Source: Akkermansia sp. RCC_12PD (GTDB lineage Bacteria > Verrucomicrobiota > Verrucomicrobiia > Verrucomicrobiales > Akkermansiaceae). From it: DNA of 64,000 bases. Both the position numbers and the translations under genes were made by a program. Positions 31,581 through 52,083 of this stretch are shown here, piece by piece. The stretch covers positions 2,852,001 to 2,916,000 of the forward strand of contig NZ_CP143889.1 of NCBI RefSeq assembly GCF_036417355.1, in the 5' to 3' direction. Each line of letters opens with the position of its first letter. Position 1 is the first letter of the stretch. The notes under the pieces are model-generated. The model saw only the letters and a list, made by a program, of their open reading frames with translations. It was not told the DNA's origin and did no database searches.

Positions 31581-34500
31581 ATGACTACTGACAACTCGCA
31601 AATTACGCTCAAATTACGCACCGGACAGGAAATCATCCTTCCCCCCAGGAAGGACCTGCTGGGCGGCCTGAAGTTCACCAGAAGATTTTCCCATAACGAG
31701 GTTCATCCCTACGATGAAGTGGACTGGGCGCGGCGCGACGTCCGCATCATGGACTGGAAAACCGGAAAAACCATTTATGAGCGCCTGGGCCTGGAAGCCC
31801 CGGCCCACTGGGACGACAACGCCGTGAAAATCACAGCGGACAAATACCTGTTCGGCAGCGAGCCGGGCTCCCTGGAATACGAAGACAGTTTCCGCAACAT
31901 TTACGACCGCATTTCCAACACCTACACCGTCTGGGGCTGGGAGGAAGGCTACTTCGCCACGCTGGAGGACGCGGAAATCTTCAATGAGGAAATAAAGGCC
32001 ATGCTCGTCCAGCAGATCTGGGCTCCCAACTCCCCCGTCTGGTTCAACATCGGCCACTGGGAGCAGTGGCGCTGGGGGCGCCCGGACCTGCGTGAAAACT
32101 ATACCGGCCACGGCAACAAGGCCTACCACGCCAAGGGCTCCAAGAACAATCTGAAAACCTACACGGTGCAGTCCACCTATGAATATCCGCAGTGCTCCGC
32201 CTGCTTCCTGACGGAAGTGGGAGACAGCATGGAGGACATTCTGGACCACCTGACCACGGAAGGCCGCATCTTCGCGTCGGGGTCCGGCGTGGGCATCAAC
32301 CTTTCCACCCTCCGCTCCTCCAAGGAGCCCATCAGCGGCAAGGGCCGTTCCTCCGGCCCCATCTCCTTTGACCGCGGCTGGGACCGCATGGCAGGCGCCA
32401 TCAAATCCGGGGGCAAGACGCGCCGCGCCGCCCGCATGGTGCTGATGTTCAGCGACCACCCGGACATTTTCGAATTCATCAACACGAAAAACCGCCAGGA
32501 AGACATCGCCAAGGTGATCCTGCGGGAGCACAACGTGCATGTGGAACTCAAGCAAATTGCGGAAACCAAGCTGGTGGCCGGCACCCCTGCGGAAAAGGCC
32601 GCCGCCCGCGTCATCCTTTCCCTGCCCCTGGCTACCAAAAACAGCTTTGACCCCCACATGGACGCCCTGCTGTACGGGGAAACGCTTTCCCACCAGAACG
32701 CGAACCACTCCGTTTCCGTAAAGGGGGACTTCTGGCAGGCGCTGGCCAACAACGGCAACACCTACACGCGCTGGGTCACGAACCCCGCCCACATTGAACA
32801 GACCTTCCGGGCCCAGGAACTGCTGGAAGCCATGGCCAAATCCATCTGGGAAAACGGGGAGCCCGGCGTGCACAACAACGACGTGATCAACCTCTGGAAC
32901 CCGGTCAAATCCATCGGCTCCATCACCACGTCCAACCCCTGTTCCGAATACGTCTTCCTGAACAACACGAGCTGCAACCTTTCCTCCTTCAACGCCTACC
33001 GCTTCCTGACAAAGGGCGATGACGGCAAGCCCGTCTTTGACGCGGATGCCCTGACCCACGCCGCGCGCCTGGCAATGGTCTGTGCTGACCTGAACGTGGA
33101 ACGAGGCGGCTTCCCGATTGAAGAAATCGCGGAAGGAACGTACAAGTACCGCACCACCGGCATCGGCTTCGCCAACGTGGGCGGCTCGCTGATGGCCCTG
33201 GGCGTGCCGTACGACTCTGACGAAGGCCGCTGGATCGCCTCCCAGCTTTGCAGCGCGCTGACGGCGGCCTGCTGGACGGCTTCCGCGGAAATGGGCGCGG
33301 AACTGGGTTCCTATGTGGAGTACCCCGCCAGCAAGAAGGACCTGCTGGCCGTGCTGCGCCTGCACCATGCGGCCCAGAAGCTGGCCGTCGCCCTGCCCGC
33401 CCAGAAGGACGCCAAGGCCCTGGACGACATGATCGACAACATCATCGCCAATGCCGGAGGAGTCCTGCCGGAAGCGCAGGGGCTGACCGCCTCCTACGCC
33501 CTGCATGCCTATCTCAAGAGCTTCAAGGCGCCCACCCAGATGAACAAGGAGCGCATCGCCCCCGCCGCCAAACTGGCGGAAGCCGCCTCCGCCATGTGGG
33601 CCAGGGCGGCCAAGGCCACCGCGCACCGCAACGCCTTCGTTTCCGTCATGGCCCCCACGGGCACCATTTCCGCCCCCCTGGGCTGTTATGACGAAGGCAC
33701 CACCTCCATCGAACCGGACTACACGCTGGTGAAATGGAAGCAGCTTGCGGGCGGCGGCTCCCTGAAAATGTTCAACCGCCTGGCCCTGGAGGGCCTGCGC
33801 TCCCTGGGTTATCCGGAAGACTTCGTCAATGAGGCCGCTCTGGAAGTGGCCGGCCTGGACGGCCTGATTTCCGCCTTCCAGGGGAACATGGACTCCGTCG
33901 TCAACCAGATCATCATCGACCCCTGCAACGACCAGGCGGGCCCCGTGCGCCTGGCGTGGCGCCGCCTCCTCTCCGGCACGGAATCCCGCAGTGAAATTCA
34001 GGAAAAGGTGGCTTACATCAGCAATCCGGCCAACATGTCCGTGCTGACTGCGGACGAGCTCACCGTCGTGAACGGCGCGGCCCATATCGAATCCATCCCG
34101 TGGCTGGACAAGAAAGACCTGGCCGTCTTCGACTGCGCCGCCACCAACGGCAACGGCGTGCGCTCCATTACCCCGGCCGGGCACGTGCTGATGCTGGGCG
34201 CTCTCCAGCCCTTCATTTCCGGCGCGTGCTCCAAGACGGTGAACATGCCCGTCTCCGCCACCGTGCAGGATATTTACGACTCCCTGATCATGTCCCATGA
34301 ACTCGGCGTCAAGTGCATCGCCATCTTCCGGGCCGGGTCCAAGGCAAATGCCGTGTATGTGGTGGACACGCCGGAAACGCGCATGTTCAAGGCCAACCAC
34401 GTCTGGGAACAGCTCGTGGGAGCCGGATCGGAAGCGATTGACGAGATCATCGCGGAGGCGTCCAAGCCGCGCCAGCGCAAACTGCCCGGCCGCCGCCTGG

Positions 34501-35123
34501 GCCAGACCGTGAAATTCTCCGTGGGCGGCCAGCTCACGGGCTACCTGACGGTGGGCGTCTATGCGGACGGCACCTGCGGGGAAGTCTTCGGACGTCTGGG
34601 CCAGGTAGGCTCCTTTGCCTCCGGCATGTTTGAAGCGTACTGCAAGCTCCTTTCCACGGCCCTTCAGTTCGGCGTACCCCTCAAGGAAGTGGTGAAGGGC
34701 TTCCGCAACTACTCCTTCGAGCCCTCCGGCTTCTGCCGCGTGGGGGACGACACGGATGCGGACACCTGCACGGAAATCCGCTCCTGCGCGTCCGTGGTTG
34801 ACCTCATCGCCAAAATTCTGGCGTGGCTCTTCCCGGAAAGCAACGGCTACCGCCTGCGGGACGTATTCTCCATCCCCAGCGTCAGCCTGCCCGGGCAAAG
34901 TCCGGACACCACGGTAAGCGTGCTGCCTCCCCGCATCATTACTACGCCGGCCCACAAGCAGAATCCGGTCCTGCCGGAAATTCCCGCCGGAAAAGCGCCG
35001 GAAGGCACCATGCTCAACGGAGCCTCCCTCTGCCCGCAATGCCATTCCCTGGCCTACGTCCAGGACGGCAAGTGCAAATCCTGCCGCTCCTGCGGCTACA
35101 AGGACGGCGGCTGCGGGGAATAA
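31581..35123 (+). CDS. nrdJ: Adenosylcobalamin-dependent (class II) ribonucleotide reductase
   Basis: 1180 residues from ATG 31581 (MTTDNSQITLKLRTGQEIIL). Class II features: QCSACFLTEVGDSMEDI with the first redox Cys, NPCSEYVFLNNTSCNLSSFN with the Asn-Cys-Glu radical site, VMAPTGTISAPLGCYDEGTT, and a long C-terminal part typical of NrdJ. The C-terminus ends in a zinc-ribbon-like CPQCHSLAYVQDGKCKSC with a further SCGY and CG pair, which serves electron transfer. It makes deoxyribonucleotides without oxygen, using AdoCbl to generate the thiyl radical, which suits an anaerobe or microaerobe. It is monocistronic; no NrdR gene is adjacent. Confidence 0.94.
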   Translation: MTTDNSQITLKLRTGQEIILPPRKDLLGGLKFTRRFSHNEVHPYDEVDWARRDVRIMDWKTGKTIYERLGLEAPAHWDDNAVKITADKYLFGSEPGSLEYEDSFRNIYDRISNTYTVWGWEEGYFATLEDAEIFNEEIKAMLVQQIWAPNSPVWFNIGHWEQWRWGRPDLRENYTGHGNKAYHAKGSKNNLKTYTVQSTYEYPQCSACFLTEVGDSMEDILDHLTTEGRIFASGSGVGINLSTLRSSKEPISGKGRSSGPISFDRGWDRMAGAIKSGGKTRRAARMVLMFSDHPDIFEFINTKNRQEDIAKVILREHNVHVELKQIAETKLVAGTPAEKAAARVILSLPLATKNSFDPHMDALLYGETLSHQNANHSVSVKGDFWQALANNGNTYTRWVTNPAHIEQTFRAQELLEAMAKSIWENGEPGVHNNDVINLWNPVKSIGSITTSNPCSEYVFLNNTSCNLSSFNAYRFLTKGDDGKPVFDADALTHAARLAMVCADLNVERGGFPIEEIAEGTYKYRTTGIGFANVGGSLMALGVPYDSDEGRWIASQLCSALTAACWTASAEMGAELGSYVEYPASKKDLLAVLRLHHAAQKLAVALPAQKDAKALDDMIDNIIANAGGVLPEAQGLTASYALHAYLKSFKAPTQMNKERIAPAAKLAEAASAMWARAAKATAHRNAFVSVMAPTGTISAPLGCYDEGTTSIEPDYTLVKWKQLAGGGSLKMFNRLALEGLRSLGYPEDFVNEAALEVAGLDGLISAFQGNMDSVVNQIIIDPCNDQAGPVRLAWRRLLSGTESRSEIQEKVAYISNPANMSVLTADELTVVNGAAHIESIPWLDKKDLAVFDCAATNGNGVRSITPAGHVLMLGALQPFISGACSKTVNMPVSATVQDIYDSLIMSHELGVKCIAIFRAGSKANAVYVVDTPETRMFKANHVWEQLVGAGSEAIDEIIAEASKPRQRKLPGRRLGQTVKFSVGGQLTGYLTVGVYADGTCGEVFGRLGQVGSFASGMFEAYCKLLSTALQFGVPLKEVVKGFRNYSFEPSGFCRVGDDTDADTCTEIRSCASVVDLIAKILAWLFPESNGYRLRDVFSIPSVSLPGQSPDTTVSVLPPRIITTPAHKQNPVLPEIPAGKAPEGTMLNGASLCPQCHSLAYVQDGKCKSCRSCGYKDGGCGE

Positions 35124-35157
35124 AGCCCCGGAACGCTCCCGTTCCATCCATTCATCA

Positions 35158-35415: not shown

Positions 35416-38400
35416 TCAGCGCACCGCACCCCAGACGATAATGGCCGCCAGGCACAGGAAGAGGACGCCCAGCAGCATCTTCACCAAAAAGGCGTGCTTC
35501 TGCTGGTAGCGGATCAGGGACTCCGCCTTCATTCCCCGGTAGGCCAGGAAGAAAATAAGCAGCAGGGGCAGGATGAATGCCAGGTTGTACAGGGCCAGCA
35601 TGCCCACGGCGGACGAACTCCCCTGCCTGATCTGGTAAATGATGGGGGCGTACACCTGCCCGGTGCAGGCCAGTTCCAGCGCGGAAATGACGATCCCGGC
35701 AACGAACGCCGCCACGATGAAGCGGGCGGACTTGCTCTGCTCCCTGGCCGTCCGGCGGATGCGCTTCTTCAGGAAATCCGGCAAAGTCAGCGACATGTCC
35801 GCCAGCCGTCCCCGGCGGGCCAGCCACGCATCCCGGAAGGAAAGGACCGCCGCAAGCAGGGCCAGCAGGGAGAACAGGACGTCCATGACCATCTTCAGGG
35901 AAGACCACGCCTGCAACTGCCCGATGAGTTCATGAAACGCCAGACCAATAGCGAAATACGTCAGATAAACGGAAAGAACGAAGCTGCCGCCCGTCAGCAG
36001 CAGCTCCCGCGGGGAGCGCCGCGCAATCTGCAGATAGGACAGGAAGAAAATCAGGGTGGCGAACGCGCACGGGTTGACGCCGTCTATCAGGCCGCCCAGC
36101 AGCACCACGCCCAGGGAAAGGCTTTCATACGTGTTCCGCACCTCCTTCCCGGCCTGTTTCATGTCTTCCCGCTCCATCATGGCCCACGCGGGCCTGGTCC
36201 CATCCGGACGGATGCCGCTTTCCGGCTGCCTTCTCGAATCTTCCAGCAGGGCCTTCAGGTTGCCGGAGGTCAGGCGGTCGCGCATCAGCCCCCCTGCCGC
36301 TCCGAATACGGACGGGGCGATCAGTCTGTCCCGCTGGGGAATCCTGAACCGTGAAGACAGCAGGGCGTTGAACTCCGTTCCCCGGTCATCCGTGATGGAA
36401 TAGGTCTCCAACTGCATGGCGGGATATTCCCGGCGCAGGCTTTCCAGGTCCCGCATGACCCTGGCGCATTCGTCGCAGCCACTTTTCTCAAAGAAAACGA
36501 CCAGGAACGGCGCATTCGGATCGGGGGGATGTGTCCCGGCCGTCTCCCGGACCGCAACGGAATCCGTCTCCGCCGCCGGCGCGGCTTTTTCCCTGCCCTG
36601 CATCATGGACGCAAAGCTCATGACCGCCGGAACGGCCGCGGCTCCGTACTTGCCCGTCAGGGAGGAAGACCAGTACATGTCCTTCAGCACCTCGGTGGAG
36701 ACGCGGACGAACAACCGGCGTTCCTCTTCCGTCAGCTTGCCCTTGCCGGGGAGAGGATCCGGCGGTTCAAAGGCAAACATGGTGCCTCCACCGCTAAAGT
36801 TCTCGTACATTTCATATTCGCGACTCTGTAAACGGTCCGTAAACACATTCTGGAAATAATCGAGAAGCTTGTCCCATTCATTGTTATACCGGCCCTGTTC
36901 CTCCAATTCCTCATTCTTCCGGGAAACCTCCCCCAGTATCGCACAAAAGGCGTCCACATCGCACTTGCGCGAAACCACCAGTTGTGCCAGGGAGGCGTAA
37001 ACCCGTACGCGAAGATCCGGGTCCTTGACGGCCAGCCGGGAAAGGGAGGCCAGCACATCCGGAAGGAGGGATGACTTTTCCGCCTTCCTGCCGCCCAGGT
37101 AGGATTTCTCGTAAAGCCGCCTCAGCGCGGGGAAATCCCCTTCCAGAAGTTCCCCCTCAGGCGACCTGAGCGCCATTTTGATCCCGCTTAACGGCATCAG
37201 CAGGGTGATGGCGTTGCATCTGACCATGGGGTCGGGAGAGGAAAGGGTCTGAACGATCCATTCCGGAATCTCCCGGATGCCCTGCGGAAAAGTCCTGAGG
37301 GACGCGAGAACCGGGTTTTCATCAACTCCGGCGGGAGGGAAAACGGCATGGGGATACTCCTGCAGGAACAGGGCGAATTCCGCAGAAGCCCGCTGCCATG
37401 GAGAACGGGCGGGATCATCCGCCACGCCGCGTATGTACTTCCGCGGGAAAAAGATGGAATACTTGTCCGGCGGAATCCTTTCAAACAGCCTGGAAATCTC
37501 GTAACTGCCCAGGAAATTCCTGAGGAAATACGTCCAGTACTGGTCGCCGTACTTTTGCGTGAACACTTCGTCCAGAAATGCCTGCATCTCCGCGTTCCTC
37601 CGGGAATTATTCAGGATGGTGAGCTTCCTTCCTCTGGATTCTTCCCTTTTGCTGGAAGAATAATATTCACAGACCTTTTCAAAAAATGACTTCATGCGTT
37701 CGCGGACTTCCGGGTCCTCATCCTGCGCCACCAGCTTCACGAGAGGCAGGTTCCTGAACAGGAAATCCTTTTCATTATTTACCCTGTAGGCAATTTCAAA
37801 CCGCATCTCCTGGGACAGGGTGCGGTAGGAAGACAAAACACTGCGGAACGCTTCCTCATCCCCGTATTGCAGCAGGCTCCGGATACATTTGTTCTTCAAA
37901 CCGGAATATTCCTCATCCTCCAGCGTGGAAAATTCTCTCAGGATATTCACCAGTTCCACTCCGAAAGACTGTATTTTTTTAAGTTTTTTGATTTTTTGAG
38001 TCTCCCAGGAGTCATTGGGATCAACCTTGATATCACCGAGAATGACCAGTTTGCACAATTTGCTGATTTCCCCGTAGGTGAGGGACATGGCAGAAACCAT
38101 TTTCTCCTTTGTTTCAAGGGGAACGGAGGAATCTTTCAGCCGGTCCAGCACAAATCTCCAGGCCTCAGGGGAAGAATCTTCATCCAGGCGGCCCGCCTCC
38201 ATGACAGCCAGAATGCTTTTCACCTCCGGGTCCGGATGTTCCAGAAGGCACCGGATGACGAGTCTGGCCGTATCATTGAGTTCAGAAGCCGTCAGCATGT
38301 TATCCCACTGGTCTTCCTGACGGACCAGTACGTTCACCTTTTCCGCGGGCATTCTCTTGAGCATGGCCTGCATGGCGGGGCTCAGCTCCGCATTTCCGGC

Positions 38401-39675
38401 CATCATGGCATACAGGATGACGGGGACCATGTCCGGCATGTCGAATGCAAGCTGTTCCAGAGCCGGAGCCAGTGCGGCACTTTTCATCCGCGCCGCCACT
38501 AGAAACGCCGCTGCGCGCACGGATTCGTCTTCATCCCGGAACATTTCCACCACGCGCGGATACAGGAGTTCCGCAGAAGAGGGCCGGACAACGCCGCTCC
38601 TGACCGCCGCCGCGCGTATTTCTCCCAGCTTCCCGTCCAGGGGAGGCTGGACGATCCTGTGTTTTCCGGCATACAGCAGGGCCTGATGGCGGATTCTCCA
38701 TTCCGGGTGCCGGAACAATTTCAAAAGCTGTTCGGGATCAATGGCCGTTTGGAGCTTTTCGATTTCCGACAGGGACTTCAAGGCGGCCAGGCACAGGTCT
38801 TCCGATTCCGAAGTGGCATGCCTGATCAGCAGCTTCTCCAACCCCGGCAGGGACTCTTCATTGTCGCTGGCCCTCCGGAACGCGATTTGCAGCACATTTT
38901 CATCCGTTTCCCGTTCCAGGAAGGGAACGATGTGGTCCACGGCGCTCTTTTCTCCATTCTGCAGGAATACGTCCACCGCCACTTCCCGGACGAGCGGATC
39001 GCGGTGGTCCAGAAATTCGTGAATGACGGGCAAGGTGGAAACGGGCTTCTTGCGGAGAGCTTCCAGAGCGTCGATGATGTCGTTCCGGTGGCTGCCGGCC
39101 AGTTTGCGCGCCAGCAGGGAGGCGTCCGGCGTCATTTCATCCAGTTGTATCCGGAAACGCGCCTGACGGATGGCCCGTTCCGTATCCGCATCCAGGTCCG
39201 GATGCTTTTCCAGATATCCCGTCAGGAATTCCAGCGCCTGCCGCTTGCGGGAGAGAAGAGCCCGGCAGGCACTTTCCCTCGCCTTTTCCGTTCCCGTCAG
39301 GATCATGGAATACAGGCGGGTATCGTCCTGTTCCCTTCCCCCGTTTTCGGCCCGGGAAGGCTGTTTCAGCCACGCTTCCCAGGACAGGAGGGGGCCGGGG
39401 TCGGCCTTGTCCGGGTCCGTCCAGGGGTCAAAGCCGAAGTCGTTCCCCGCCATATCCTCCAGCGCATCCAGTGCCTTGCTCCGAACGGCCAGGCGCTGGC
39501 TTTTCAGCATGGCCACCAGGTCCGGGCGCGGGTCCTTCCCCTCCTTTTCCAGAGACTTGACCAGCGCGGACGGCTGTTCCGCCGCTATCAGCTGCTCTTC
39601 CGTCAGAACGGCTCCCCCGGCGTTCAGGCCAAGGAACATGGACAGGCACAGGAAATGGAACAGGAAGGGCTTCAT
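35416..39675 (-). CDS. Giant membrane protein: HEAT repeats + thioredoxin domain + CcdA/DsbD-like membrane domain
   Basis: 1419 residues. A signal peptide (MKPFLFHFLCLSMFLGLNAG) is followed by about 1000 residues of HEAT-like helical pairs (for example DHRDPLVREVAVDVFLQNGE, HPEWRIRHQALLYAGKHR, PDLRVRVYASLAQLVV). Next is a thioredoxin-like domain with FLVVFFEKSGCDECARVM (C1067-x-x-C1070). The last ~240 residues form about six membrane helices like CcdA/DsbD-beta, with cysteines in NPCAF (C1203) and ELACTGQVY (C1337). The likely role is moving reducing power across the inner membrane to the periplasmic thioredoxin, tied to a protein-interaction scaffold. This domain mix is unusual. It is the last gene of the MoxR cluster and overlaps the DUF4159 stop (TGATG). 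Confidence 0.82.
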   Translation of the reverse strand: MKPFLFHFLCLSMFLGLNAGGAVLTEEQLIAAEQPSALVKSLEKEGKDPRPDLVAMLKSQRLAVRSKALDALEDMAGNDFGFDPWTDPDKADPGPLLSWEAWLKQPSRAENGGREQDDTRLYSMILTGTEKARESACRALLSRKRQALEFLTGYLEKHPDLDADTERAIRQARFRIQLDEMTPDASLLARKLAGSHRNDIIDALEALRKKPVSTLPVIHEFLDHRDPLVREVAVDVFLQNGEKSAVDHIVPFLERETDENVLQIAFRRASDNEESLPGLEKLLIRHATSESEDLCLAALKSLSEIEKLQTAIDPEQLLKLFRHPEWRIRHQALLYAGKHRIVQPPLDGKLGEIRAAAVRSGVVRPSSAELLYPRVVEMFRDEDESVRAAAFLVAARMKSAALAPALEQLAFDMPDMVPVILYAMMAGNAELSPAMQAMLKRMPAEKVNVLVRQEDQWDNMLTASELNDTARLVIRCLLEHPDPEVKSILAVMEAGRLDEDSSPEAWRFVLDRLKDSSVPLETKEKMVSAMSLTYGEISKLCKLVILGDIKVDPNDSWETQKIKKLKKIQSFGVELVNILREFSTLEDEEYSGLKNKCIRSLLQYGDEEAFRSVLSSYRTLSQEMRFEIAYRVNNEKDFLFRNLPLVKLVAQDEDPEVRERMKSFFEKVCEYYSSSKREESRGRKLTILNNSRRNAEMQAFLDEVFTQKYGDQYWTYFLRNFLGSYEISRLFERIPPDKYSIFFPRKYIRGVADDPARSPWQRASAEFALFLQEYPHAVFPPAGVDENPVLASLRTFPQGIREIPEWIVQTLSSPDPMVRCNAITLLMPLSGIKMALRSPEGELLEGDFPALRRLYEKSYLGGRKAEKSSLLPDVLASLSRLAVKDPDLRVRVYASLAQLVVSRKCDVDAFCAILGEVSRKNEELEEQGRYNNEWDKLLDYFQNVFTDRLQSREYEMYENFSGGGTMFAFEPPDPLPGKGKLTEEERRLFVRVSTEVLKDMYWSSSLTGKYGAAAVPAVMSFASMMQGREKAAPAAETDSVAVRETAGTHPPDPNAPFLVVFFEKSGCDECARVMRDLESLRREYPAMQLETYSITDDRGTEFNALLSSRFRIPQRDRLIAPSVFGAAGGLMRDRLTSGNLKALLEDSRRQPESGIRPDGTRPAWAMMEREDMKQAGKEVRNTYESLSLGVVLLGGLIDGVNPCAFATLIFFLSYLQIARRSPRELLLTGGSFVLSVYLTYFAIGLAFHELIGQLQAWSSLKMVMDVLFSLLALLAAVLSFRDAWLARRGRLADMSLTLPDFLKKRIRRTAREQSKSARFIVAAFVAGIVISALELACTGQVYAPIIYQIRQGSSSAVGMLALYNLAFILPLLLIFFLAYRGMKAESLIRYQQKHAFLVKMLLGVLFLCLAAIIVWGAVR

Positions 39676-40337
39676 CAGCGCAGAAGGGCGTAAGCCAGAA
39701 TATTGGCGTTGATTTCAAGGGCGTTTCCCAATTCGCTGCCCCCGCAGCAGCAGCACCCCTTGGAATGGCGGCTGTCGTTGAGGCCGTCCGCGGAATAAAT
39801 GATGACCAGCTTGTCATTCAGCGTGACTCCTTCCAGATGGCCTTTCGCGGCCTGTTTTCCCGCCTCCAACTGCTTGATGTTGAAGACGGTTGAAAAAACA
39901 GGATGGCGCATGGACACGGGCTTGAGAACGGCTTCTCCGAAGATGGTGCGCATCTCCCTGCGGAAGGAAGCGTCCCAGGCGGCATTGGAGCACCCGGCGG
40001 AGGCCAGCAGGAAGCCGCCCGACTGGACATATTTTTTCAGGTTTTCCCGTTCCCGTGCCGTAAGGACGAAGTCCCCCTCCCCGGTCATTACCACAAAGGG
40101 GAAGCGGAACAGTTCCTCATTGTCCAGCCGTACGGCCCGGAACCGCCTGCTGGTAGAAATGCTGGTTTTCTGCTGGACGGTGGACAGGAATTCGTCACTG
40201 AAACAGCGGGAAGTCTGCGTACCCGCATAAATCAGGTTGCCGCACTGAACCACGCCTTCCTTTCCACGGCTTTCCGCCGGATACAGGAACAGCGCGGCAA
40301 GAACCGCCGTCATCATTCGTTTAAGGGTCGTTTTCAT
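39675..40337 (-). CDS. DUF4159 domain protein
   Basis: 220 residues with a signal-like N-terminus (MMTAVLAALFLYPAESRGKE). The pattern FRFPFVVMTGEGDFVLTARE, LKKYVQSGGFLLASAGCSN and DKLVIIYSADGLND fits DUF4159, a glutamine-amidotransferase-like fold of unknown activity. A four-Cys stretch (GCCCCGGSELGNALEIN) near the C-terminus is noteworthy and could bind metal. It overlaps the upstream DUF4175 gene by four bases and the downstream giant protein by one base, so translation is coupled. DUF4159 is known to occur in MoxR/VWA clusters of bacteria. Confidence 0.8.
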   Translation of the reverse strand: MKTTLKRMMTAVLAALFLYPAESRGKEGVVQCGNLIYAGTQTSRCFSDEFLSTVQQKTSISTSRRFRAVRLDNEELFRFPFVVMTGEGDFVLTARERENLKKYVQSGGFLLASAGCSNAAWDASFRREMRTIFGEAVLKPVSMRHPVFSTVFNIKQLEAGKQAAKGHLEGVTLNDKLVIIYSADGLNDSRHSKGCCCCGGSELGNALEINANILAYALLR

Positions 40338-43147
40338 TGTTTTGGCTCGTTTTGCCTGTGTTGTTCAAAGTATTGCCTGACGGCATCCCGGTAAAGGCCG
40401 GGCACCTGCTGCATGGCCGGACTGCCCAGGCCGTCCCCCGGCGTTTTTTCCTGTTTCCGCCCGGCTTCTTCATCCTTATGGCCGGAAGAGGAATGCCGGC
40501 CGTTCGTTGCGGTCCCGTCTCCGCCTTCCCCCTTCTGCGGACCCTCGCCCGCTCCTTCCCGGGACGGGCGGGGCTGCTGGAACTTCTCCCTCTGGGGGCC
40601 GAACATGGGGACTCCATTCATCAGGCCGTCCCCGCCATCCCCCTGTCCGCTCCCAAATCCGCCTCTTCCCTGCCTTCTGCTCAGCATGGAATTCAAAAGC
40701 TGCTGCATGGCTCCGGCGCATTCCCGGCTCATACCGCTTACGGAGCATGCTCCTGACGATGCGGCGGAGTTTTCCCCCAGCAGCTTCATCATGATTTCCC
40801 AGGCTCTCTGCGCCCTGTCCGCCGCTGCCGCGGGCTTGCCCGCGTAACAGGCGGAAGCGCTCTCCTCCATGAGTTCCGCAATGCCTGTCTGAAGGCATGC
40901 CTGGATGAAGCCGGCCATCTCCCGCTTGAATTCCTCCGCTTCCTCCGGAATGGCGGAAATGACGGCGGGAGCCCTGCTGTGCCAGAGCCAGTACAAAGCC
41001 AGTATTTCTTTCTGGGACTCGCCCAGAGCCTTCAACTGCTCCCTCGTCACGGGACGGCCCTCCTTCCGTTCGGACAAAAAGCGCCCCAGCATGGTCGCCG
41101 TCTCCTTCTGGGAATCCGCCAGACGGCGGAATTCCATGATCAGGCCGTACCCCTGCATGACTTTTGCGGCCATTTCCGCTTCTCCGCTCTGCCGGGCCGT
41201 TTCCTCCTGCGGAGCGCGCAGCCTGTCGCGCATGGTCCGGAAAAACTCCTGGGTGGATTCCTGAGTGCCGGGAAGTTCTCCGGAAAGGTCTTCCTCATTC
41301 TTCGCAATGATTCCGGCCAGGGAGGAAGCCGTTTCCGACAGTTTTCCGTCCGTGTCGAAAATAGGAAAATCCTTCGCCATCTTTTCCGCCAGTTTTCTGA
41401 CTTCCGCGTGCTTTTCCTTCAATTGGACGGCTTCTTCCCGGCTCAGTCCGGACGGATTGGCTTTCTTCGCCCTGTCCAATTCCCGGACCAGATCGTCAAT
41501 GGACTGGGCCAAAAGGCGGTATTTGTTGACGAACTCATCCACGCCCGTCCTGATGCGGAGCATTTCCCGGTACTGTTCCTCACTAATGACATGTACCGTG
41601 ACAGGTTCTGAAACCGTCATGTTCAGCAGGTAGGGATTGGCGTCGCGGGCCTCCACGGACAACTGGAGCACATCCCCGGCCCTGGCCCCCAGCGCCGGCA
41701 GGGAAAGCTGTTCCGCCAGGAACAGGGACTTTTTGGACGCTTCCGGTACCGGCATTTCAAGCGAACGCGCGCGGGAGCCGCTCACGCTCCTGACCCACGC
41801 CACACGGGTGACGCCGTAGTCGTCCTGCACCTCCGCATGGAAGGGAATCACCACGTCTTCCAGGGCCACGGAAACCGGAGCGGGGGCATGAATAACCACG
41901 GACGGACGGGCGTCCGCATTCACCCTGACGCGGTTTTCCAGAGGCCGCGCCATCCCGGTCCCGCGGTAATCCGTCATCTGGATGGACGCCGTCCCTGACT
42001 GGCGCACGCGGAGGGGGAAGGAAATGCGGCCGTCCGGCAGAAGGACTCCCTGCACGGTTTGCGCCTTCAGGTCCTTCCTGTCCGGCGTAAAGACGGCTTT
42101 TCCGGACATCAGAGGACGATTGCTTTCCAGAATGAAATCCGCCGTGCCGCCGTCAATCACCGTCACATCCTGGCCGTTCAGGGGATATTCCACGGGCGGC
42201 AGACCGGTATATTCCGGCGGAGACACGATCACGGAGCCGCCCGCCACCTTGGGCTGGTAGTTGATTTCCAGCGGATACCATTCGCTCCTGGCCTTTCCGC
42301 CGGCAGTGGCGAAGGCGATCCGGCACGGAGCCGTCAGTTTTTCCAGCCTTCTGGCCCAAATGCCGGACTGGTCGCGGAACGCGGCCAGCTTCTGGACGGG
42401 ATGGCCGTCCGGCCTGACCCATATTTCCACGGGAGAAGTCAGCGGAGCCCCCGTGACGCGCACCTGCATCAGGGCGTCCTCACCGTACACGACGGAAGAA
42501 GGGGAGTCCACCAGTTCAAAACGGTAGGGGGAAAGGGGCGGTATGTCCTCCCACGGGGTGCACAGCCTGCCGTACAGCACTCCGGCCGCGTCCCGGTTCC
42601 ATGAAACCAGCGCCGCGCACAGGGCCAGCAGCAAAAGCAGGCCCCATACGGATTTTCTTTTCAACAGGCGCCACAGGCGGTCGTTCTGCGCGTATTGCTC
42701 CAGCCTGGAACGGGCGGCGCGTTCCGTTTCCCCCATCAGCCAGGCTCCCAGGGAATGGCCGGAAGACTCCGGCGCAAGAGGGCTCCGGCTCATTTCCCAG
42801 AAGGAAAGCACGGTTTGACGGGCGTCATGATTGGCGGAATCCGCCTTGCGCGCCAGGTCCGCCGGATTCCTGCGCCACGCATGCGCCAGCAGTGCGGCCA
42901 GCAGAACCAGCAGCAGGAGCGCCAGAACGGGGGAGGCCCATTCCCGCGTCTTATTCTCCAAGGGGGAATAAACGTCGGCCAGGACATACAGGCCGCATGC
43001 CAGGATGACCGCCATCCCCCACAGGGAGCAGGCGGCGGCCAGCGCCCGGCGTCTTTCCCGGCGCAGAACGGCGGAAAACAGTCCGCGAAATCCCGGAGCG
43101 GGCCGGGAGGCGGATGAAGCCGGAGTGTTGGAGTCCTTTTCCTTCAT
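40334..43147 (-). CDS. DUF4175-type membrane protein
   Basis: 937 residues from ATG 43147 (MKEKDSNTPASSASRPAPGF); the frame is open 13 codons further but only 8 bases separate it from the upstream gene. The N-terminal part has two or three membrane helices (LAAACSLWGMAVILACGLYV, VLALLLLVLLAALLAHAW, then LLLLLALCAALVSW). A periplasmic Ig-like beta region follows. The C-terminal half is helical coiled-coil (about residues 530-800), and the Gly/Gln-rich tail contains RRQGRGGFGSGQGDGGDG. This layout matches DUF4175 proteins found next to DUF4159 and MoxR genes. The function is unknown; a scaffold for an envelope complex is an inference. Confidence 0.75.
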   Translation of the reverse strand: MKEKDSNTPASSASRPAPGFRGLFSAVLRRERRRALAAACSLWGMAVILACGLYVLADVYSPLENKTREWASPVLALLLLVLLAALLAHAWRRNPADLARKADSANHDARQTVLSFWEMSRSPLAPESSGHSLGAWLMGETERAARSRLEQYAQNDRLWRLLKRKSVWGLLLLLALCAALVSWNRDAAGVLYGRLCTPWEDIPPLSPYRFELVDSPSSVVYGEDALMQVRVTGAPLTSPVEIWVRPDGHPVQKLAAFRDQSGIWARRLEKLTAPCRIAFATAGGKARSEWYPLEINYQPKVAGGSVIVSPPEYTGLPPVEYPLNGQDVTVIDGGTADFILESNRPLMSGKAVFTPDRKDLKAQTVQGVLLPDGRISFPLRVRQSGTASIQMTDYRGTGMARPLENRVRVNADARPSVVIHAPAPVSVALEDVVIPFHAEVQDDYGVTRVAWVRSVSGSRARSLEMPVPEASKKSLFLAEQLSLPALGARAGDVLQLSVEARDANPYLLNMTVSEPVTVHVISEEQYREMLRIRTGVDEFVNKYRLLAQSIDDLVRELDRAKKANPSGLSREEAVQLKEKHAEVRKLAEKMAKDFPIFDTDGKLSETASSLAGIIAKNEEDLSGELPGTQESTQEFFRTMRDRLRAPQEETARQSGEAEMAAKVMQGYGLIMEFRRLADSQKETATMLGRFLSERKEGRPVTREQLKALGESQKEILALYWLWHSRAPAVISAIPEEAEEFKREMAGFIQACLQTGIAELMEESASACYAGKPAAAADRAQRAWEIMMKLLGENSAASSGACSVSGMSRECAGAMQQLLNSMLSRRQGRGGFGSGQGDGGDGLMNGVPMFGPQREKFQQPRPSREGAGEGPQKGEGGDGTATNGRHSSSGHKDEEAGRKQEKTPGDGLGSPAMQQVPGLYRDAVRQYFEQHRQNEPKQ

Positions 43148-43155
43148 GGGGTCGT

Positions 43156-45375
43156 TTACAGTAATCCGTTGCGGCGGCGCACCCACCAGTACAGGGCCGG
43201 AAGCACGGCCAGCACCAGCAGGACGTACCAGCGGTTCCAGAGGGGGAAGAAGGCTTCCTCCCTGCTCGTGTAGTCGGGCGGCGGTTCCATCATGGCTGGC
43301 AGGGTTCCGTCCAGTTCTTCACGGGACAGGCGGCGGCCCCCGGTCAATTCGCTCATGGAAGCCAGAAAAGCCGGGTCCGCATCCAGATTGTCCCGTTCTC
43401 CCGGCGGTTCGGGAACATCCAGACAGACGTCCGGCATGGGGGAAGCGCCGCTCCCCGCCATGCGTGCGCGGAGAATGTAGCGGCCCGGTCGGGGGGAAGT
43501 GAACACGCCGTTCCAGCGGGGCAGCCCCCCGCGGGAGGCGTCCTGCCGCGCGGCGGCTGAAAAGATGGTTTTTTCCGGATTCCTGATGTCCGCCACTTCA
43601 ACGGACACCCCGGACGGGCGCCCTCTGCCCCTCCAGCTCATGGAGAAGGAGACGGGAACGCCAGGTTCCACGGAAGTGCGCTCCACATGCAGGGAAAGGT
43701 CATAGCCGGGGAGGAATTCGGCCGCCGTCTGCATCCACGGCAGGAACTGCCCCCAGAAATCCTCATACCAGTTCCCCAGCCTGAGTGCCTCCGGGAAAAA
43801 GTCCCACTTCCACAATCCGTCGCCGTTGATCATGCCCGCGGCGCCCATGCCCACTCTTTTGACGGCCAGCAGGGGAATGCGGCCGTCCGGGGACCGGGCC
43901 ACTACCCGCGTGCCGGGGAAAATTCTTTCCACGTCCCAGGAATCCTCAAGCGGCGGCAGAGAACGCCACACGTCGGCCCCGGTCCCCGGCAGCACGACGC
44001 CGAACAGGCCGTCCTTCACCCCTTCCGGGGACGGGGTGAGCTGGTGGTCACCCGGGAACGGCGCCTTCCAGGCGAAGGGTTCCAGGGCTTCCATCTCCGG
44101 AAAGCGGCCCGCATACGACTTGCCGCGCGCAAAAACGAGCAGGCCGCCGTAATCGCGTACAAAGGAATGCAGAGCGGCGGCGCGCGCCGGGGTGATGATC
44201 CGTTCCGCCCCCTTGCCCAGAATAACCATGTCAAAGCGCAGGAAATCCTCCAGGGAGGACGGGATGGACTCACCGTCCGCCTTCGCGCCGGTTTCCTCCC
44301 CGGTGTTGATGCTGTAAAAACGCTCCTGGGTCAGCATGTGGATGGAGCGGACGTCGAACGAAGGCTGGCGGCGCAGGAACTGGGCCAGGAATTTGCTGTC
44401 CCAGTACGGGGCTCCCTCCGCCATGAACACTCGGATGCGCGATCTCATGGCTTGTACGGAAAAAAGGGCTTCATGGCCTTCCGGTCCGGATTCGTCGCCG
44501 GGCACGGCATCGCATTTCAAGGAAAAATGGGCCGATTTGGGCGGGCATTCCAGAGTGAAATTCACTACGGCGTCCGCATCGTCGGCCACATTGACCACCT
44601 TCCTGTCCAACACCCTACCCCCGGCATCCAGCAGGGACACGGCGGTCTGGACGGCACCCAGCTTCCTGTTCCTCACCCGCGCGGACGCCTGAACCGTATT
44701 TCCGGGGAAGGAGTGAATGATGGTCTTGGTCGCTTCCAGCGTCAGGCGGGGGGCCTCCCACTTCTCTCCGTAGCACAGGGTATGGACCGGAACTCCCAGA
44801 TTCCCGGCCTCCCGTGCCAGCCTTCCCAGATGCGCGGGCTCCGTGTCCCTGCCGTCGGAAAGAAGGATAAGGCCGGAAGGGGCGCGCCCTCCAGAGCGTT
44901 CATCCTCCAGCAAGGCGGCCAGGGAGCGGGACAGGGGGGAGGAACTGCCGTCCGCCTCCACACGGGCGAGTGCTCCCGCATCCGGCAGGATGGAGGAAGA
45001 ATCTTTCACAGAAACCCAGCGCACGTCCACGCCGTCCGGCACCAGGCCGGCGATGGATTTCAGGTCCCTGCGCGCGGCATCCACCCGGGAACCTCCCGCA
45101 CCGGAGGACTGCATGGGGGAGGTCATGGAGGAAGAAGCGTCCAGAGCGACGATCCAGACGGGACGGGAATGCACCGTCAGCGTTTCCTTCCTGCCCGGAT
45201 TGGCAAGCAGGAACAGGGTTCCTGCAATTCCGGACAGGTAGGCCGCGGACACGAGCATGCGGGTGCGCGGGCGGAAACTCCGCGTGCCGCGCGCCAGAAG
45301 AAAACAGAACAGGACCAGGCAGGCCGCGGCAACGACGCCCAGCCAGCCCCAGGGAATGACGGGTTCAAAGATCAT
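43156..45375 (-). CDS. Membrane-anchored VWA-domain protein
   Basis: 739 residues. Two N-terminal membrane helices (WLGVVAAACLVLFCFLLARG and LVSAAYLSGIAGTLFLLANP) lead to a VWA domain with the MIDAS motif IVALDASSSM. A glutamine-amidotransferase-like region follows (FDMVILGKGAERIITPARAA, then FVRDYGGLLVFARGKSYAG). The C-terminal helix WYVLLVLAVLPALYWWVRRR returns to the membrane. The start overlaps the BatA-like gene by four bases and the stop is 8 bases before DUF4175. Such proteins are partners of MoxR ATPases in assembling or activating envelope complexes. Confidence 0.82.
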   Translation of the reverse strand: MIFEPVIPWGWLGVVAAACLVLFCFLLARGTRSFRPRTRMLVSAAYLSGIAGTLFLLANPGRKETLTVHSRPVWIVALDASSSMTSPMQSSGAGGSRVDAARRDLKSIAGLVPDGVDVRWVSVKDSSSILPDAGALARVEADGSSSPLSRSLAALLEDERSGGRAPSGLILLSDGRDTEPAHLGRLAREAGNLGVPVHTLCYGEKWEAPRLTLEATKTIIHSFPGNTVQASARVRNRKLGAVQTAVSLLDAGGRVLDRKVVNVADDADAVVNFTLECPPKSAHFSLKCDAVPGDESGPEGHEALFSVQAMRSRIRVFMAEGAPYWDSKFLAQFLRRQPSFDVRSIHMLTQERFYSINTGEETGAKADGESIPSSLEDFLRFDMVILGKGAERIITPARAAALHSFVRDYGGLLVFARGKSYAGRFPEMEALEPFAWKAPFPGDHQLTPSPEGVKDGLFGVVLPGTGADVWRSLPPLEDSWDVERIFPGTRVVARSPDGRIPLLAVKRVGMGAAGMINGDGLWKWDFFPEALRLGNWYEDFWGQFLPWMQTAAEFLPGYDLSLHVERTSVEPGVPVSFSMSWRGRGRPSGVSVEVADIRNPEKTIFSAAARQDASRGGLPRWNGVFTSPRPGRYILRARMAGSGASPMPDVCLDVPEPPGERDNLDADPAFLASMSELTGGRRLSREELDGTLPAMMEPPPDYTSREEAFFPLWNRWYVLLVLAVLPALYWWVRRRNGLL

Positions 45376-47429
45376 GATTGCGCCTCCTTTCCATCACGGA
45401 CCGTCCGGACAGGCAGGGAGGAAAGCCGGAGTTCCAGGGCAAGAAGAAGAACGGCCGCCCCCAGCAGCCACGGCCACAGAGGTATTCTGCCCGTTACTTC
45501 CACCAGTTTTCCGGAAGCCGTGACGACAGCCGCGGATGCGGGCAGGTTCCCCGCCGCCAAGGTTTGCAGGTTGGATTCCCCCGCCGGGAAATTGACTACC
45601 TGGGTATGCAGAGGCATTCCGGCAGCATGACAGCCGCTCCACACGTAGGTTCCGGGAACGGCGGGAGTCATGGAGGAAAGAAGGCGCTTGCCGGAAGAAA
45701 GGCGGGATTCCTTGCACAGAAGTTCCGCACCGTCCGGCCCGGTCAGAACCACGTCCGCGGCATCCAGCGTATCCGGCAAAATCCAGGAAGGAAAGTCCCT
45801 GCCCGGCTCCGGAGCGGCTTCCCCCACCCCCTCCTGGCGGGATTTCAGCATGGCTTCCGCCAGGAACGGGAGGAAAAGGGGGGATTTCCCCCAGTCCGCA
45901 TCCATGGACTGGACCGGAACATTCCACAAAACAAGGGCTCCCCGCCCCTTCGCCCTTCTGGCAATGGCCGGAACCCCGTCTTCATAGCGGACGAGAACGC
46001 TGACCAAATCATTCCAGGAATCCGGAGCCAGCCCTTCGTTCAGGCGCCGGAACACGCGGGCATCCAGGGGGGAGGCCGCGTCCCCTCCGCGGAACAGATC
46101 GAACACGGGGTCGTCCGGCAGGGCGGCATTCAAAGTCCAGCCTTTTCCCGTCTTCTCGTATTCGGAAAAGGTCCTGGGGCCGTCCGGAAGGCCCATGAGG
46201 GCGTTTGCCACGGCATCCCCGGAAAAATCAGGCACGGCCACAATGACGGAACCGGCCTCCGCCAGCGCCTCCATCTTCTTCAAATCCTCTTTTTCCGGCT
46301 TGTTCCAGACAATGAAATCCGGCTGTTCCCTCCCCAGCCCCCCGGCGGACTGGACATCCAGAAATGGAATGAACCGGAGAGCCTTCATCATGAAACCGAG
46401 CTGCGCCTCGTCCTGCGTTACGGCGTCGCACTCCAGGGAAGCTCCCACCCTGACCACCGTTCCGGCGGTATCGTCCGCAGGGAACGCATCATGGTCCAGC
46501 GTGACGAAAACGGGCCATTCCTCCACGGAACTTGGAACTTGCGCCTGGAAGGAAACCGTTTCTTTGGCTCCCGCGGGAATTTCAGCCGTACGGGAAGCCC
46601 GCAAGGAACCGGCCTCCAGATGGGCCGTGACGCGTACGGGCTGGGAACCGAAGTTGGAAAGAACGGCCTGCACCGTTACGGACTGCCCGGGAAGCACCGT
46701 GGCGGGCATCACCTTCAGGGAAGTCACGGCCGTGTTGGGAAGACATTCATGGACCGCCACCTGAATGCACCGCACGTCCAGGTCCGGAGGAAAAGCCTTC
46801 TCCCAGTCCACTCCGCTCCAGTTGGACGACTGGAAATCGGAAAGAATGTAAACGGAGGTGGGACGCGTGGAAGCCGTCCGTGCCGCCTGCTCCACGGCCA
46901 GGGCCAGCGCGGCGGCGGTATTGGCCGCCTCCGGCCTGCTGTGGATGCGCTGAAGCTCCCTGTTCACCAGGTCATGGGAGGGCATGGGCTCCCGGAACAG
47001 GGCGGCGGGGGCCGCATCCGCCCAGATGAGGTTCACTAGGTCCCCCCTTTTCAGATCCGACATGATTTGTCCGGCAAAGACACCCGCCTTGGAAATGCGG
47101 GATTCCTGGCCGTCCGCCGCGGACATGGAAGCGGAACGGTCCACCACCAGAATGACGGAGCGGCTGCCCTGCTCCTCCATGCTCCTCCCGGCCATGTAGG
47201 GAAGCAGGAACGCCGCCGCCAGACAAGCCGCCGCCAGTGTCCGGACAGCCAGAAGCAGCCAGTCCTTGGGCCTTCTCAGGCGCACATGGCGCTTCACCGC
47301 CCTGCGCAGGAAAATCAGGGAGCTGAATTCCCGTTCCCTGGGCCTGCTGCGGGCAAAAAGATGCACCAGCAGCGGAACGGCCGCCGCGGCCATCAGCCAG
47401 AACAGGGGGTTGGAGAAAAACAGGTTCAT
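45372..47429 (-). CDS. BatA/VWA domain protein
   Basis: 685 residues from ATG 47429 (MNLFFSNPLFWLMAAAAVPL). The N-terminal BatA region contains PLLVHLFARSRPREREFSSL and a second helix (LLLAVRTLAAACLAAAFLLP). The VWA domain carries the MIDAS motif VILVVDRSASMSAADGQ. A CARDB-like beta region follows (VLPGQSVTVQAVLSNFGSQP), then an amidotransferase-like part and a C-terminal helix (WPWLLGAAVLLLALELRL). It is the first VWA gene after DUF58, 28 bases downstream, and overlaps the next by four bases. Two VWA proteins in one cluster resemble BatA/BatB arrangements. Confidence 0.83.
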   Translation of the reverse strand: MNLFFSNPLFWLMAAAAVPLLVHLFARSRPREREFSSLIFLRRAVKRHVRLRRPKDWLLLAVRTLAAACLAAAFLLPYMAGRSMEEQGSRSVILVVDRSASMSAADGQESRISKAGVFAGQIMSDLKRGDLVNLIWADAAPAALFREPMPSHDLVNRELQRIHSRPEAANTAAALALAVEQAARTASTRPTSVYILSDFQSSNWSGVDWEKAFPPDLDVRCIQVAVHECLPNTAVTSLKVMPATVLPGQSVTVQAVLSNFGSQPVRVTAHLEAGSLRASRTAEIPAGAKETVSFQAQVPSSVEEWPVFVTLDHDAFPADDTAGTVVRVGASLECDAVTQDEAQLGFMMKALRFIPFLDVQSAGGLGREQPDFIVWNKPEKEDLKKMEALAEAGSVIVAVPDFSGDAVANALMGLPDGPRTFSEYEKTGKGWTLNAALPDDPVFDLFRGGDAASPLDARVFRRLNEGLAPDSWNDLVSVLVRYEDGVPAIARRAKGRGALVLWNVPVQSMDADWGKSPLFLPFLAEAMLKSRQEGVGEAAPEPGRDFPSWILPDTLDAADVVLTGPDGAELLCKESRLSSGKRLLSSMTPAVPGTYVWSGCHAAGMPLHTQVVNFPAGESNLQTLAAGNLPASAAVVTASGKLVEVTGRIPLWPWLLGAAVLLLALELRLSSLPVRTVRDGKEAQS

Positions 47430-47457: not shown

Positions 47458-48339
47458 TCAGCCTGCCAGTTGGTCGAAAAGGCCGTAGTACGGCTCCCTG
47501 GTGGTTGCGGACATGAAGGCCACGCCCCTTGAAGCGGCCATGGAACGCAGGACCTGACGGTGGCGCATGAAATCGCGCTGGTAGTCCGCACGCACGCTGG
47601 CCGCGTTCAGCACCAGGCGGTCTCCCGTCTCCATGTCCCGGTAGCGGACGGCGCCCTGGTCCCTCAGGGAAAGTTCGCCGGGGTCGAGAACCTGGATAAG
47701 GATGATCTTGAATCCCCGGTGCAGGTAGGGATTCAGTGCGTGGAAAATGGAGGCGGGGTCGTCCAGAAAATCAGAGACGACGACCAGCGTCCCCTTCCTG
47801 CGGAGAAGCCCACGGGAACGCTCCAGCGCGGCGCTGACGGAGGTGAGGCCGCCCGGCGTGTTGTGTTCCAGCCGGTTCAGTATCTGGTCCAGGTGCTTCA
47901 TGGATGAACCGGGAGGAATGAAACTGCGTATCTTTTCATCAAACAACTGGAGGGAAACCATGTCATGCCCCCGCACTACCAGCCACGCGAAACAGGCGGC
48001 AAAAAAAGAGGCGTACTCCAGCTTGCTCATGGGGCCGAGGTCCCGGAAGCCCATGGACGCGCTGCTGTCCACCAGCAGATGGCATTCCAGATGCGTCTCA
48101 TGTTCAAACGTCTTCAGATAATGCCTGTCCGTACGGGCATACACGCGCCAGTCCACCATGCGGACGTCGTCCCCCTGGGCATACTGGCGGTACTCCAGAA
48201 AGTTGCTGGAAGCCCCCCTGCCCCTGGCGCGGTGGCGGCCGGACATCCACCCTTCCACCATCATTTTGGCGGCAAAACGGTAGTTTGCCAGGCGCCGCAC
48301 GTCTTCGGGACGCAGATATTTGTGGCTCGTTTCGCTCAT
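47458..48339 (-). CDS. DUF58 domain protein
   Basis: 293 residues. The DUF58 signature is clear: GRGASSNFLEYRQYAQGDDV followed by RMVDWRVYARTDRHYLKTFE. A VWA-like part has LLVDSSASMGF (MIDAS) and TLVVVSDFLDDP. DUF58 proteins nearly always follow a moxR gene and are thought to act with the ATPase as an adaptor, here 51 bases after it. It has no membrane segment, so it is probably cytoplasmic. Confidence 0.9.
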   Translation of the reverse strand: MSETSHKYLRPEDVRRLANYRFAAKMMVEGWMSGRHRARGRGASSNFLEYRQYAQGDDVRMVDWRVYARTDRHYLKTFEHETHLECHLLVDSSASMGFRDLGPMSKLEYASFFAACFAWLVVRGHDMVSLQLFDEKIRSFIPPGSSMKHLDQILNRLEHNTPGGLTSVSAALERSRGLLRRKGTLVVVSDFLDDPASIFHALNPYLHRGFKIILIQVLDPGELSLRDQGAVRYRDMETGDRLVLNAASVRADYQRDFMRHRQVLRSMAASRGVAFMSATTREPYYGLFDQLAG

Positions 48340-51494: not shown

Positions 51495-52069
51495 CTTCCG
51501 GCCTGACACCTGAACTCACTCTCTCCGCTTACTGCCAGGGATGCTTCCCGATGGCGGATCCGTCCACCGGGGAAATTTCCTTTTATGAACCGGACCCGCG
51601 AGCCCTGATTCCCCTGGACGAGCGCTTCCACATTCCCCACGGCCTGCGCCGCACCCTGCGCAAAAAACCTTTTGAAATACGGATGGACACGGCTTTTGCG
51701 GAAGTCGTCCATGCGTGCGCCCGGACGGACCGGCCCGAAGAACAGTGGATAGACGGCCAGATTGAGGAAGTGTACGGCAAACTCCATGAAATGGGATTTG
51801 CACACAGCGTGGAATGCTGGGATGGAGAAGGACTGCAAGGCGGCCTGTACGGGATTTCCCTGGGAAAGGCGTTTTTCGGGGAAAGCATGTTCCACCGGAA
51901 AACGGACGCCAGCAAGATAGCGCTGGTGGCGCTGGTGCAGTACCTGCGGGCGCACCAGTTCCTTTTTCTGGACACACAGTGGACGACGCCGCATTTGCTG
52001 AAATTCGGCACGTATGAGGTGCCGGCCCGGGAATACCGGGAAATGCTGAAACGGGCGCTGGAGGGGTAA
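51491..52069 (+). CDS. aat: Leucyl/phenylalanyl-tRNA--protein transferase
   Basis: 192 residues. The family motifs YCQGCFPMAD, WTTPHLLKFGTYEVPAREY and GGLYGISLGKAFFGESMF are all present. It adds Leu or Phe to N-terminal Arg/Lys of proteins, marking them for ClpS/ClpAP decay by the N-end rule. It overlaps mutY by four bases (ATGA) and is last in the operon. A nonamer array begins 14 bases after its stop, so no room is left for a normal terminator. Confidence 0.94.
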   Translation: MTSGLTPELTLSAYCQGCFPMADPSTGEISFYEPDPRALIPLDERFHIPHGLRRTLRKKPFEIRMDTAFAEVVHACARTDRPEEQWIDGQIEEVYGKLHEMGFAHSVECWDGEGLQGGLYGISLGKAFFGESMFHRKTDASKIALVALVQYLRAHQFLFLDTQWTTPHLLKFGTYEVPAREYREMLKRALEG

Positions 52070-52083
52070 AAGGGGCGGCGGCT

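Follow-up and report, generated by a model that had tools for sequence, protein, structure and literature searches.

MoxR/VWA (Bat) operons are widespread. Why, then, should one branch of them close with a gene for a probable membrane-bound thiol relay built onto a HEAT-repeat scaffold? The question is raised by a 64,000-nucleotide stretch of the genome of Akkermansia sp. RCC_12PD (contig NZ_CP143889.1, positions 2,852,001 to 2,916,000; hereafter the window, whose own numbering is used below), where a cluster of seven genes ends in a 1,419-residue fusion of HEAT-like repeats, a thioredoxin-like domain and a DsbD/CcdA-type membrane domain. Here, we propose, with a probability of about 60%, that this fusion works as a thiol relay in the membrane, dedicated to keeping reduced the product of the adjoining gene, a DUF4159 protein with four successive cysteines. 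In a set of relatives the fourth of these cysteine codons is replaced by UGA, and the protein is there a probable selenoprotein.

The fusion and the DUF4159 protein beside it

The two genes and their parts are as follows, with residue numbers referring to the encoded proteins.

35416–39675, minus strand: HEAT-thioredoxin-CcdA fusion, 1,419 residues, open reading frame (ORF) with an ATG start
39607–39663, minus strand: N-terminal hydrophobic segment of the fusion, probable export signal, residues 5–23 (hydropathy scan)
36793–39600, minus strand: HEAT-like alpha-solenoid, residues ~26–961 (Pfam HEAT_2/HEAT; nearly all-helical model, Foldseek)
36232–36507, minus strand: thioredoxin-like domain with CDEC (C1067, C1070), residues 1057–1148 (model topology, invariant CxxC and proline)
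35434–36120, minus strand: DsbD/CcdA-type membrane domain with C1203 and C1337, residues 1186–1414 (Pfam, hydrophobic segments)
39675–40337, minus strand: DUF4159 protein; cysteines conserved, N-terminus signal-like on inspection (Pfam DUF4159, E 1.1e-28)
39744–39755, minus strand: CCCC motif (GCCCCGG) of the DUF4159 protein, residues 195–198, its fourth codon UGA in 11 relatives (alignment)

The three-part architecture that the original prediction had read from the letters stands: the fusion is one open minus-strand frame with a probable export signal, the CDEC site lies where it had been placed, and both core cysteines of the membrane domain were found, C1203 in GVNPCAFA and C1337 in ELACTGQ. 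The HEAT-like repeats, also part of that prediction, are matched by Pfam (HEAT_2, E 1.5e-18; HEAT, E 1.8e-12) and were not refuted by a structure model of residues 22–1175, built from an alignment of 20 sequences (mean predicted local distance difference test score, pLDDT, 73; predicted template modelling score 0.46). The model is helical almost throughout to about model residue 940 and thioredoxin-like thereafter, and its top Foldseek matches are the HEAT solenoids importin-beta, SF3B1 and the PP2A scaffold; its overall shape is not reliable. A sequence search of the PDB with the fusion returned just one weak match, to a designed repeat (E 0.042).

The thioredoxin domain falls below the Pfam cut-offs (best E 0.03). 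Its modelled topology is b-a-b-a-b-b-a, in which the first helix opens with the CxxC and the third strand is preceded by an invariant proline. The C-terminal part of the fusion comprises six or seven hydrophobic segments in a hydropathy scan; taken in isolation, this membrane domain marginally exceeds the cut-offs of DsbD_TM (28.8 against 27.1 bits, E 9.4e-7) and DsbD_2 (25.6 against 24.9 bits, E 1.3e-5), and the whole fusion scores 20.9 bits with DsbD_2, under the gathering cut-off of 24.9. All 31 HEAT proteins examined contain the CxxC, and 25 of them, the CcdA-bearing forms, contain both membrane cysteine motifs, NPCAF and E(L/F)(A/S)CTGQ. A chance ORF is ruled out, the fusion being alignable with 19 relatives (18 at 19–28% identity and one at 93%), and the antisense ORFs across the region are mechanical only. 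Two distant HEAT proteins, at loci L089 (13295–14101) and L186 (5866–6900), carry an extra N-terminal thioredoxin domain of the Thioredoxin_7 type, which the window protein does not have.

What the original prediction missed is that the adjoining DUF4159 gene encodes the cluster's own cysteine protein, with CCCC, or CCC-UGA in relatives, and therefore an obvious target for a reductase. In an alignment whose 31 rows include near-duplicates, C45, C116 and C195–C197 are present in every row and C32 in 30; C198 occupies all 29 readable rows, and the remaining two are blank because the codon there is TGA, beyond which the frame continues into the C-terminus of the family. No invariant cysteine column was found in the BatA-type, VWA-like and DUF4175-like proteins of the cluster, and among these four the DUF4159 protein alone has them. 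A profile of the CCCC subfamily draws a clear line between it and the remaining DUF4159 proteins of the phylum: 34 loci score at least 229 bits, and the best of the rest scores 128. CCCC does not occur in the eight generic DUF4159 proteins from the order that could be read, a comparison from which L016 and L017 (wrong ORFs) were left out. The model of the protein (pLDDT 86) matches class I glutamine-amidotransferase-like folds at Z of about 8–10. With its conserved cysteines, the DUF4159 protein is the probable thiol or selenol partner of the fusion.

A candidate selenocysteine form

The protein with the CCC(C/U) motif, where U stands for selenocysteine (Sec), occurs in 60 of 386 genomes of the order. 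Its gene contains exactly one TGA in 11 of these 60, which span six genera, and in all 11 the TGA lies at the fourth cysteine position; the other 74 loci examined (73 together with L270, which reads GCCCCG) have cysteine there. After the UGA, 22 conserved residues precede the stop in each of the 11 genomes. The columns that vary in this tail number 7 at the first codon position, 2 at the second and 21 at the third, and pairwise codon differences are synonymous in 440 cases and not in 204.

Downstream of the UGA, every one of the 11 loci can form a hairpin with a GUC or GUU loop and a stem of 5–7 base pairs (in G404 the closing pair is lost and the loop has five nucleotides). The loop lies 24 nucleotides past the UGA, or 23 in G404, within the 16–37 nucleotides of the bacterial selenocysteine insertion sequence (SECIS) model, which, in the available text of a 2026 review (PMC13188914), further comprises a loop of 3–9 nucleotides with an early G, a stem of 4–16 base pairs and a minimum free energy of at most -7.5 kcal/mol. 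The seven pairs of the hairpin are 93.5% formed, sliding the partner reduces pairing to less than 50%, and two pairs have changed on both sides, from C-G to U-A and from G-C to A-U. In a comparison with 500 shuffles, the real alignment exceeded every one of them in paired cells, in doubly changed cells and in covariation score; the number of pairs changed in both members was no better than in the shuffles (276 of 500 as high), and that of further pair types was equalled or exceeded in all 500. An in-register test found the hairpin at 11 of 11 UGA loci versus 1 of 73 cysteine loci, namely G677. The fold z-scores of single hairpin sequences are not significant, some cysteine homologues scoring lower; the SECIS claim rests on the comparative tests.

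Genes needed to read such a codon are found in the same genomes. SelB is encoded in all 11 UGA genomes versus 10 of 49 cysteine genomes and SelA in 10 of the 11 versus, again, 10 of 49, counts for which the Fisher values ignore shared ancestry; the genome with no SelA match, G675, is 86% complete. In both UGA genomes examined (G029 and G404), ARAGORN reported a selenocysteine tRNA (tRNA-Sec) with a tca anticodon. The window's own genome gave no SelA match and no SelB match above the cut-off, and its DUF4159 gene uses cysteine.

The UGA genes form one clade with the cysteine gene of G677 (support 0.984), and a single origin of Sec is therefore probable. The G677 gene is sister to a UGA lineage, has kept the hairpin and resides in a genome with SelA and SelB; on this evidence it is a likely Sec-to-Cys reversion, a kind of change described as rare in prokaryotes in the available text of the same review (PMC13188914). 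At this locus (L222, 5386–9431), the fusion is divided between two overlapping frames, one for the HEAT part (1,005 residues) and one for the thioredoxin-CcdA part (374 residues), through either a frameshift or a true split.

The UGA-bearing DUF4159 genes thus very probably represent a new selenoprotein family with a CCCU motif, in which Sec would be inserted at the UGA. Neither DUF4159 nor CCCU appears among the 119 families and subfamilies in Table 1 of the review (PMC13188914), and the two Sec forms scanned against NCBIfam matched none of its models at E 0.01. Among open-licence papers in PubMed Central, none mentions DUF4159, those pairing CCCU with selenocysteine are unrelated as judged by title and start of abstract, and no paper combines HEAT repeat, DsbD and MoxR. 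The parts are of known kinds; their combination and the selenoprotein appear to be new within this scope of literature and catalogues.

The gene cluster and its conservation

The five remaining genes of the cluster precede the DUF4159 gene and lie on the same strand.

48391–49410, minus strand: MoxR-type AAA+ ATPase (Pfam AAA_3, E 9.8e-60, and AAA_lid_2; relatives 61–98% identical head the same cluster)
47458–48339, minus strand: DUF58 protein with a VWA match (Pfam DUF58, E 1.6e-52; VWA_2, 7.6e-11)
45372–47429, minus strand: BatA-type membrane protein with a VWA domain (Pfam BatA, 8.8e-14; VWA_2, 8.5e-12; NCBIfam two_anch, 1.3e-14)
43156–45375, minus strand: second VWA-like protein, 739 residues (conserved in place, 27–97% identity; no conserved cysteine)
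40334–43186, minus strand: DUF4175-like protein, 950 residues (conserved in place; name unconfirmed, from the original prediction, with no supporting Pfam match)

The BatA-type gene probably starts at the ATG at 47429, although its ORF extends to 47591. Of the names originally given to the neighbours, MoxR, DUF58, BatA-VWA and DUF4159 are borne out by Pfam, whereas DUF4175 and the second VWA found no supporting match at E 1. The 739-residue protein of the window has no Pfam match at all at that threshold; its relative in Luteolibacter pohnpeiensis (L069) gives weak VWA matches (E 0.06 and 0.11).

In Verrucomicrobiota the genes usually stand in the order MoxR, DUF58, BatA-type VWA, VWA-like, DUF4175-like and DUF4159, with the fusion last. 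In the window they overlap or are closely spaced, and the stop of the DUF4159 gene overlaps the start of the fusion (TGATG). When 387 genomes of the phylum were searched with the thioredoxin-CcdA part, 94 gave matches, and 24 matches lie in frames of at least 1,000 residues. Within a neighbourhood set of 55 stretches from relatives, searched by blastp, 33 have a HEAT match, usually with thioredoxin and CcdA in the same ORF, and 15 of these HEAT-matching stretches have all seven genes in order (L098 without CcdA); many others are too short for MoxR, and L068 and L078 are truncated where their contigs end. The relatives surveyed include Akkermansia glycaniphila, Luteolibacter pohnpeiensis and metagenome-assembled genomes labelled Haloferula and Prosthecobacter. 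By contrast with the long frames, blastp detected not one of the other six genes of the cluster in 20 stretches around shorter-frame thioredoxin-CcdA or CcdA matches, these stretches being 4 to 20 kb long, mostly upstream, with four under 9 kb, and including G352 (1,069 residues without a HEAT match). The cluster is patchy in the window's own genus, since in a 39-relative sample only 3 of its 25 genomes, the window's own included, have the fusion, and the same three have the DUF4159 gene.

The gene next to the CCC(C/U) gene was classed at 84 loci, to which the window, G004 and L270 do not belong; in the window and in G004 the fusion adjoins the DUF4159 gene. A single ORF running from HEAT to CcdA is the next gene at 48 of the 84, including all 11 UGA loci. 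At six, one of them the split G677, it is a HEAT ORF without CcdA in the same ORF, and at four a HEAT ORF truncated at the end of its contig; nine have a neighbour that is neither HEAT nor UshA-like, and one meets the contig end. At the remaining 16, two of which are on stretches that end soon after, the partner is a UshA-like protein. Four CxxCH motifs are present in all seven UshA-like proteins inspected and a cytochrome c554-type region in the three examined with Pfam, and because of these haem motifs the alternative partner also looks redox-active. For the two proteins scanned, the best NCBIfam model is NF041198, which describes UshA-like (seleno)proteins, at 246 and 225 bits, below its cut-off of 275. 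The replacements lie at L170 (8102–9460), L184 (9925–11298) and 14 other loci, and L172 and L175 have an additional thioredoxin-like gene beyond the UshA-like one. As a multihaem protein takes the place of the relay in other clusters, the constant need would seem to be electrons for the DUF4159 protein.

A promoter scan of the cluster gave three sites versus a shuffle mean of 2.7, hence no excess, and terminator-like sites number 29 versus 17.8 in shuffles. Elsewhere in the window, a 1,177-residue frame at 31614–35147 on the minus strand has no Pfam match and is antisense to a 1,243-residue plus-strand gene, presumably ribonucleotide reductase-like; the frame is probably an artefact of composition. 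At about 52000–52294, also on the minus strand, a mechanical ORF consists of a PLSPLSPLS run, a short tandem repeat.

The proposed relay, its rivals and known systems

CcdA and DsbD domains pass electrons from cytoplasmic thioredoxin to an outer thioredoxin-like domain. In the relay that we propose, electrons from cytoplasmic thioredoxin would enter the CcdA-type domain of the fusion (C1203/C1337) and be passed to its CDEC thioredoxin domain on the envelope side, which the HEAT solenoid, acting as an arm, may position on a complex of the MoxR/BatA type. The main client would be the DUF4159 protein, encoded just upstream and presumably exported, whose CCCC or CCC-Sec the relay would recycle or hold in the reduced state. 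One clade of the order would make this client as a selenoprotein, through recoding of UGA. A broader idea, which we offer tentatively, is that the envelope has in the DUF4159-CCC(C/U) protein a novel kind of metal centre or selenol/thiol enzyme that the MoxR/VWA proteins mature or remodel, the HEAT-thioredoxin-CcdA fusion and the tetrahaem UshA-like protein being interchangeable electron partners. If true, it would give one branch of the Bat/MoxR operons a biochemical job.

A number of observations weigh against the relay or against its selenoprotein form. The original prediction tied the fusion to the MoxR cluster, and the conserved gene order supports this; the linkage is strong. It is not universal, because in the window's own genus six clusters (G227, G647, G652, G666, G711 and G719) have no adjacent partner, in addition to the 16 loci with a UshA-like replacement. 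In five of the six, a different contig encodes a HEAT-thioredoxin protein without CcdA, and in the sixth, G652, no such protein was detected; among eight members of the genus searched, such proteins occur in G227, G647, G666, G691, G711 and G719 and the full fusion in G013. Because these proteins stand elsewhere and have no CcdA, the membrane module may be dispensable or replaceable. HEAT-thioredoxin proteins at L168, L169, L181, L182 and L186 do adjoin the CCCC gene, likewise with no CcdA in the ORF, and the isolated membrane domains of three of four relatives have no Pfam match at E 0.01. At L086 (G258) the VWA, DUF4175-like and DUF4159 genes and the fusion are present, with no match to MoxR, DUF58 or BatA in the 7.6 kb beyond; at L073, a stretch of 21 kb with a thioredoxin-CcdA ORF of 498 residues, neither HEAT nor any gene of the cluster was detected. 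One conserved cysteine each is also found in MoxR (15 of 15 rows) and DUF58 (15 of 16), both presumably cytoplasmic. As for the selenoprotein, 4 of the 11 hairpins fold more weakly than the -7.5 kcal/mol limit (seven reach it), the Rfam search for tRNA-Sec was unspecific, matching all 24 genomes and likewise all 14 controls, so that the ARAGORN check alone was used, and the association with SelA and SelB depends on phylogeny because the UGA genes are one clade.

The CCCC motif could also bind a metal instead of cycling between redox states, and of the rivals to the relay this one survives best, although we consider it rather unlikely. The CCC(C/U) motif, with C32, C45 and C116, would bind Cu, Fe-S, Zn or Hg, the fusion would reduce the thiols for loading, and MoxR and the VWA proteins would act as insertion chaperones, for which chelatase-like AAA-VWA pairs provide an analogy. 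Four adjacent cysteines are indeed atypical for a dithiol catalyst, and MoxR matches Mg-chelatase and cobaltochelatase models, though far under their cut-offs. Sec as a purely structural ligand would, however, be atypical as well, and both alternative neighbours of the DUF4159 gene resemble electron carriers. In favour of a metal site, about 70% of predicted selenoprotein binding interactions are with metals or metal-derived molecules, according to the available text of the review (PMC13188914).

It is more doubtful still that the fusion is a general envelope reductase, a DsbD-like hub for many exported proteins whose genomic home merely happens to be the MoxR cluster. Domains of the DsbD type do have several clients and a HEAT solenoid could bind multiple proteins, but the HEAT form tracks the CCCC gene, and the short thioredoxin-CcdA and CcdA proteins, which are the candidates for such a role, are encoded outside the cluster (none of the 20 stretches with cluster genes). 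That the in-frame UGA reflects real termination or a sequencing error, the relatives' protein ending at CCC, is very improbable: the missing SelA match in the incomplete G675 genome and the non-significant folding of single hairpins would fit it, but the same codon recurs in 11 genomes of six genera, the 22-residue tail changes mostly at synonymous sites, the hairpin shows compensatory changes, SelB is present in 11 of 11 and the 74 other loci examined all have cysteine at this site.

The proposed relay can be set beside several known systems. Like the DsbD, CcdA and ScsB relays, the fusion joins a two-cysteine membrane domain to a thioredoxin-like domain; unlike them, it is the last gene of a MoxR/VWA cluster, and where DsbD has an Ig-like alpha domain the fusion has a HEAT solenoid of about 940 residues. 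The DUF4159 protein has the same fold as structure 4i66 (Hoch_4089, DUF4159, PF13709; Z 21.3 over 186 residues, Foldseek E 8.1e-13), which lacks the CCCC motif. Relatives of the UshA_like_PCGU family (NF041198) adjoin the CCCC gene, with scores under the cut-off in the two scanned. As in the Bat (Bacteroides aerotolerance) operons, the genes for MoxR, DUF58 and the BatA-type VWA protein stand in that order in the cluster and are followed by one for another VWA-like protein; the cluster continues with DUF4159-CCCC and the redox fusion, whereas Bat operons continue with batC/D/E. When all bat ORFs of Leptospira biflexa were deleted, growth and oxidative tolerance were unchanged, as reported in the available text of that study (PMC3557215). 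With a fixed cysteine or selenocysteine protein and what would be its dedicated reductase in one branch of the Bat/MoxR operons, the function of the operon becomes a redox question that can be assayed. To the catalogue of selenoproteins the locus adds a probable family with an unusual CCCU motif and a likely Sec-to-Cys reversion that still bears its hairpin; the selenoprotein TsoB, resembling a rhodanese/DsbD fusion, likewise brings together selenium and a DsbD-like module (PMC13188914, Table 1).

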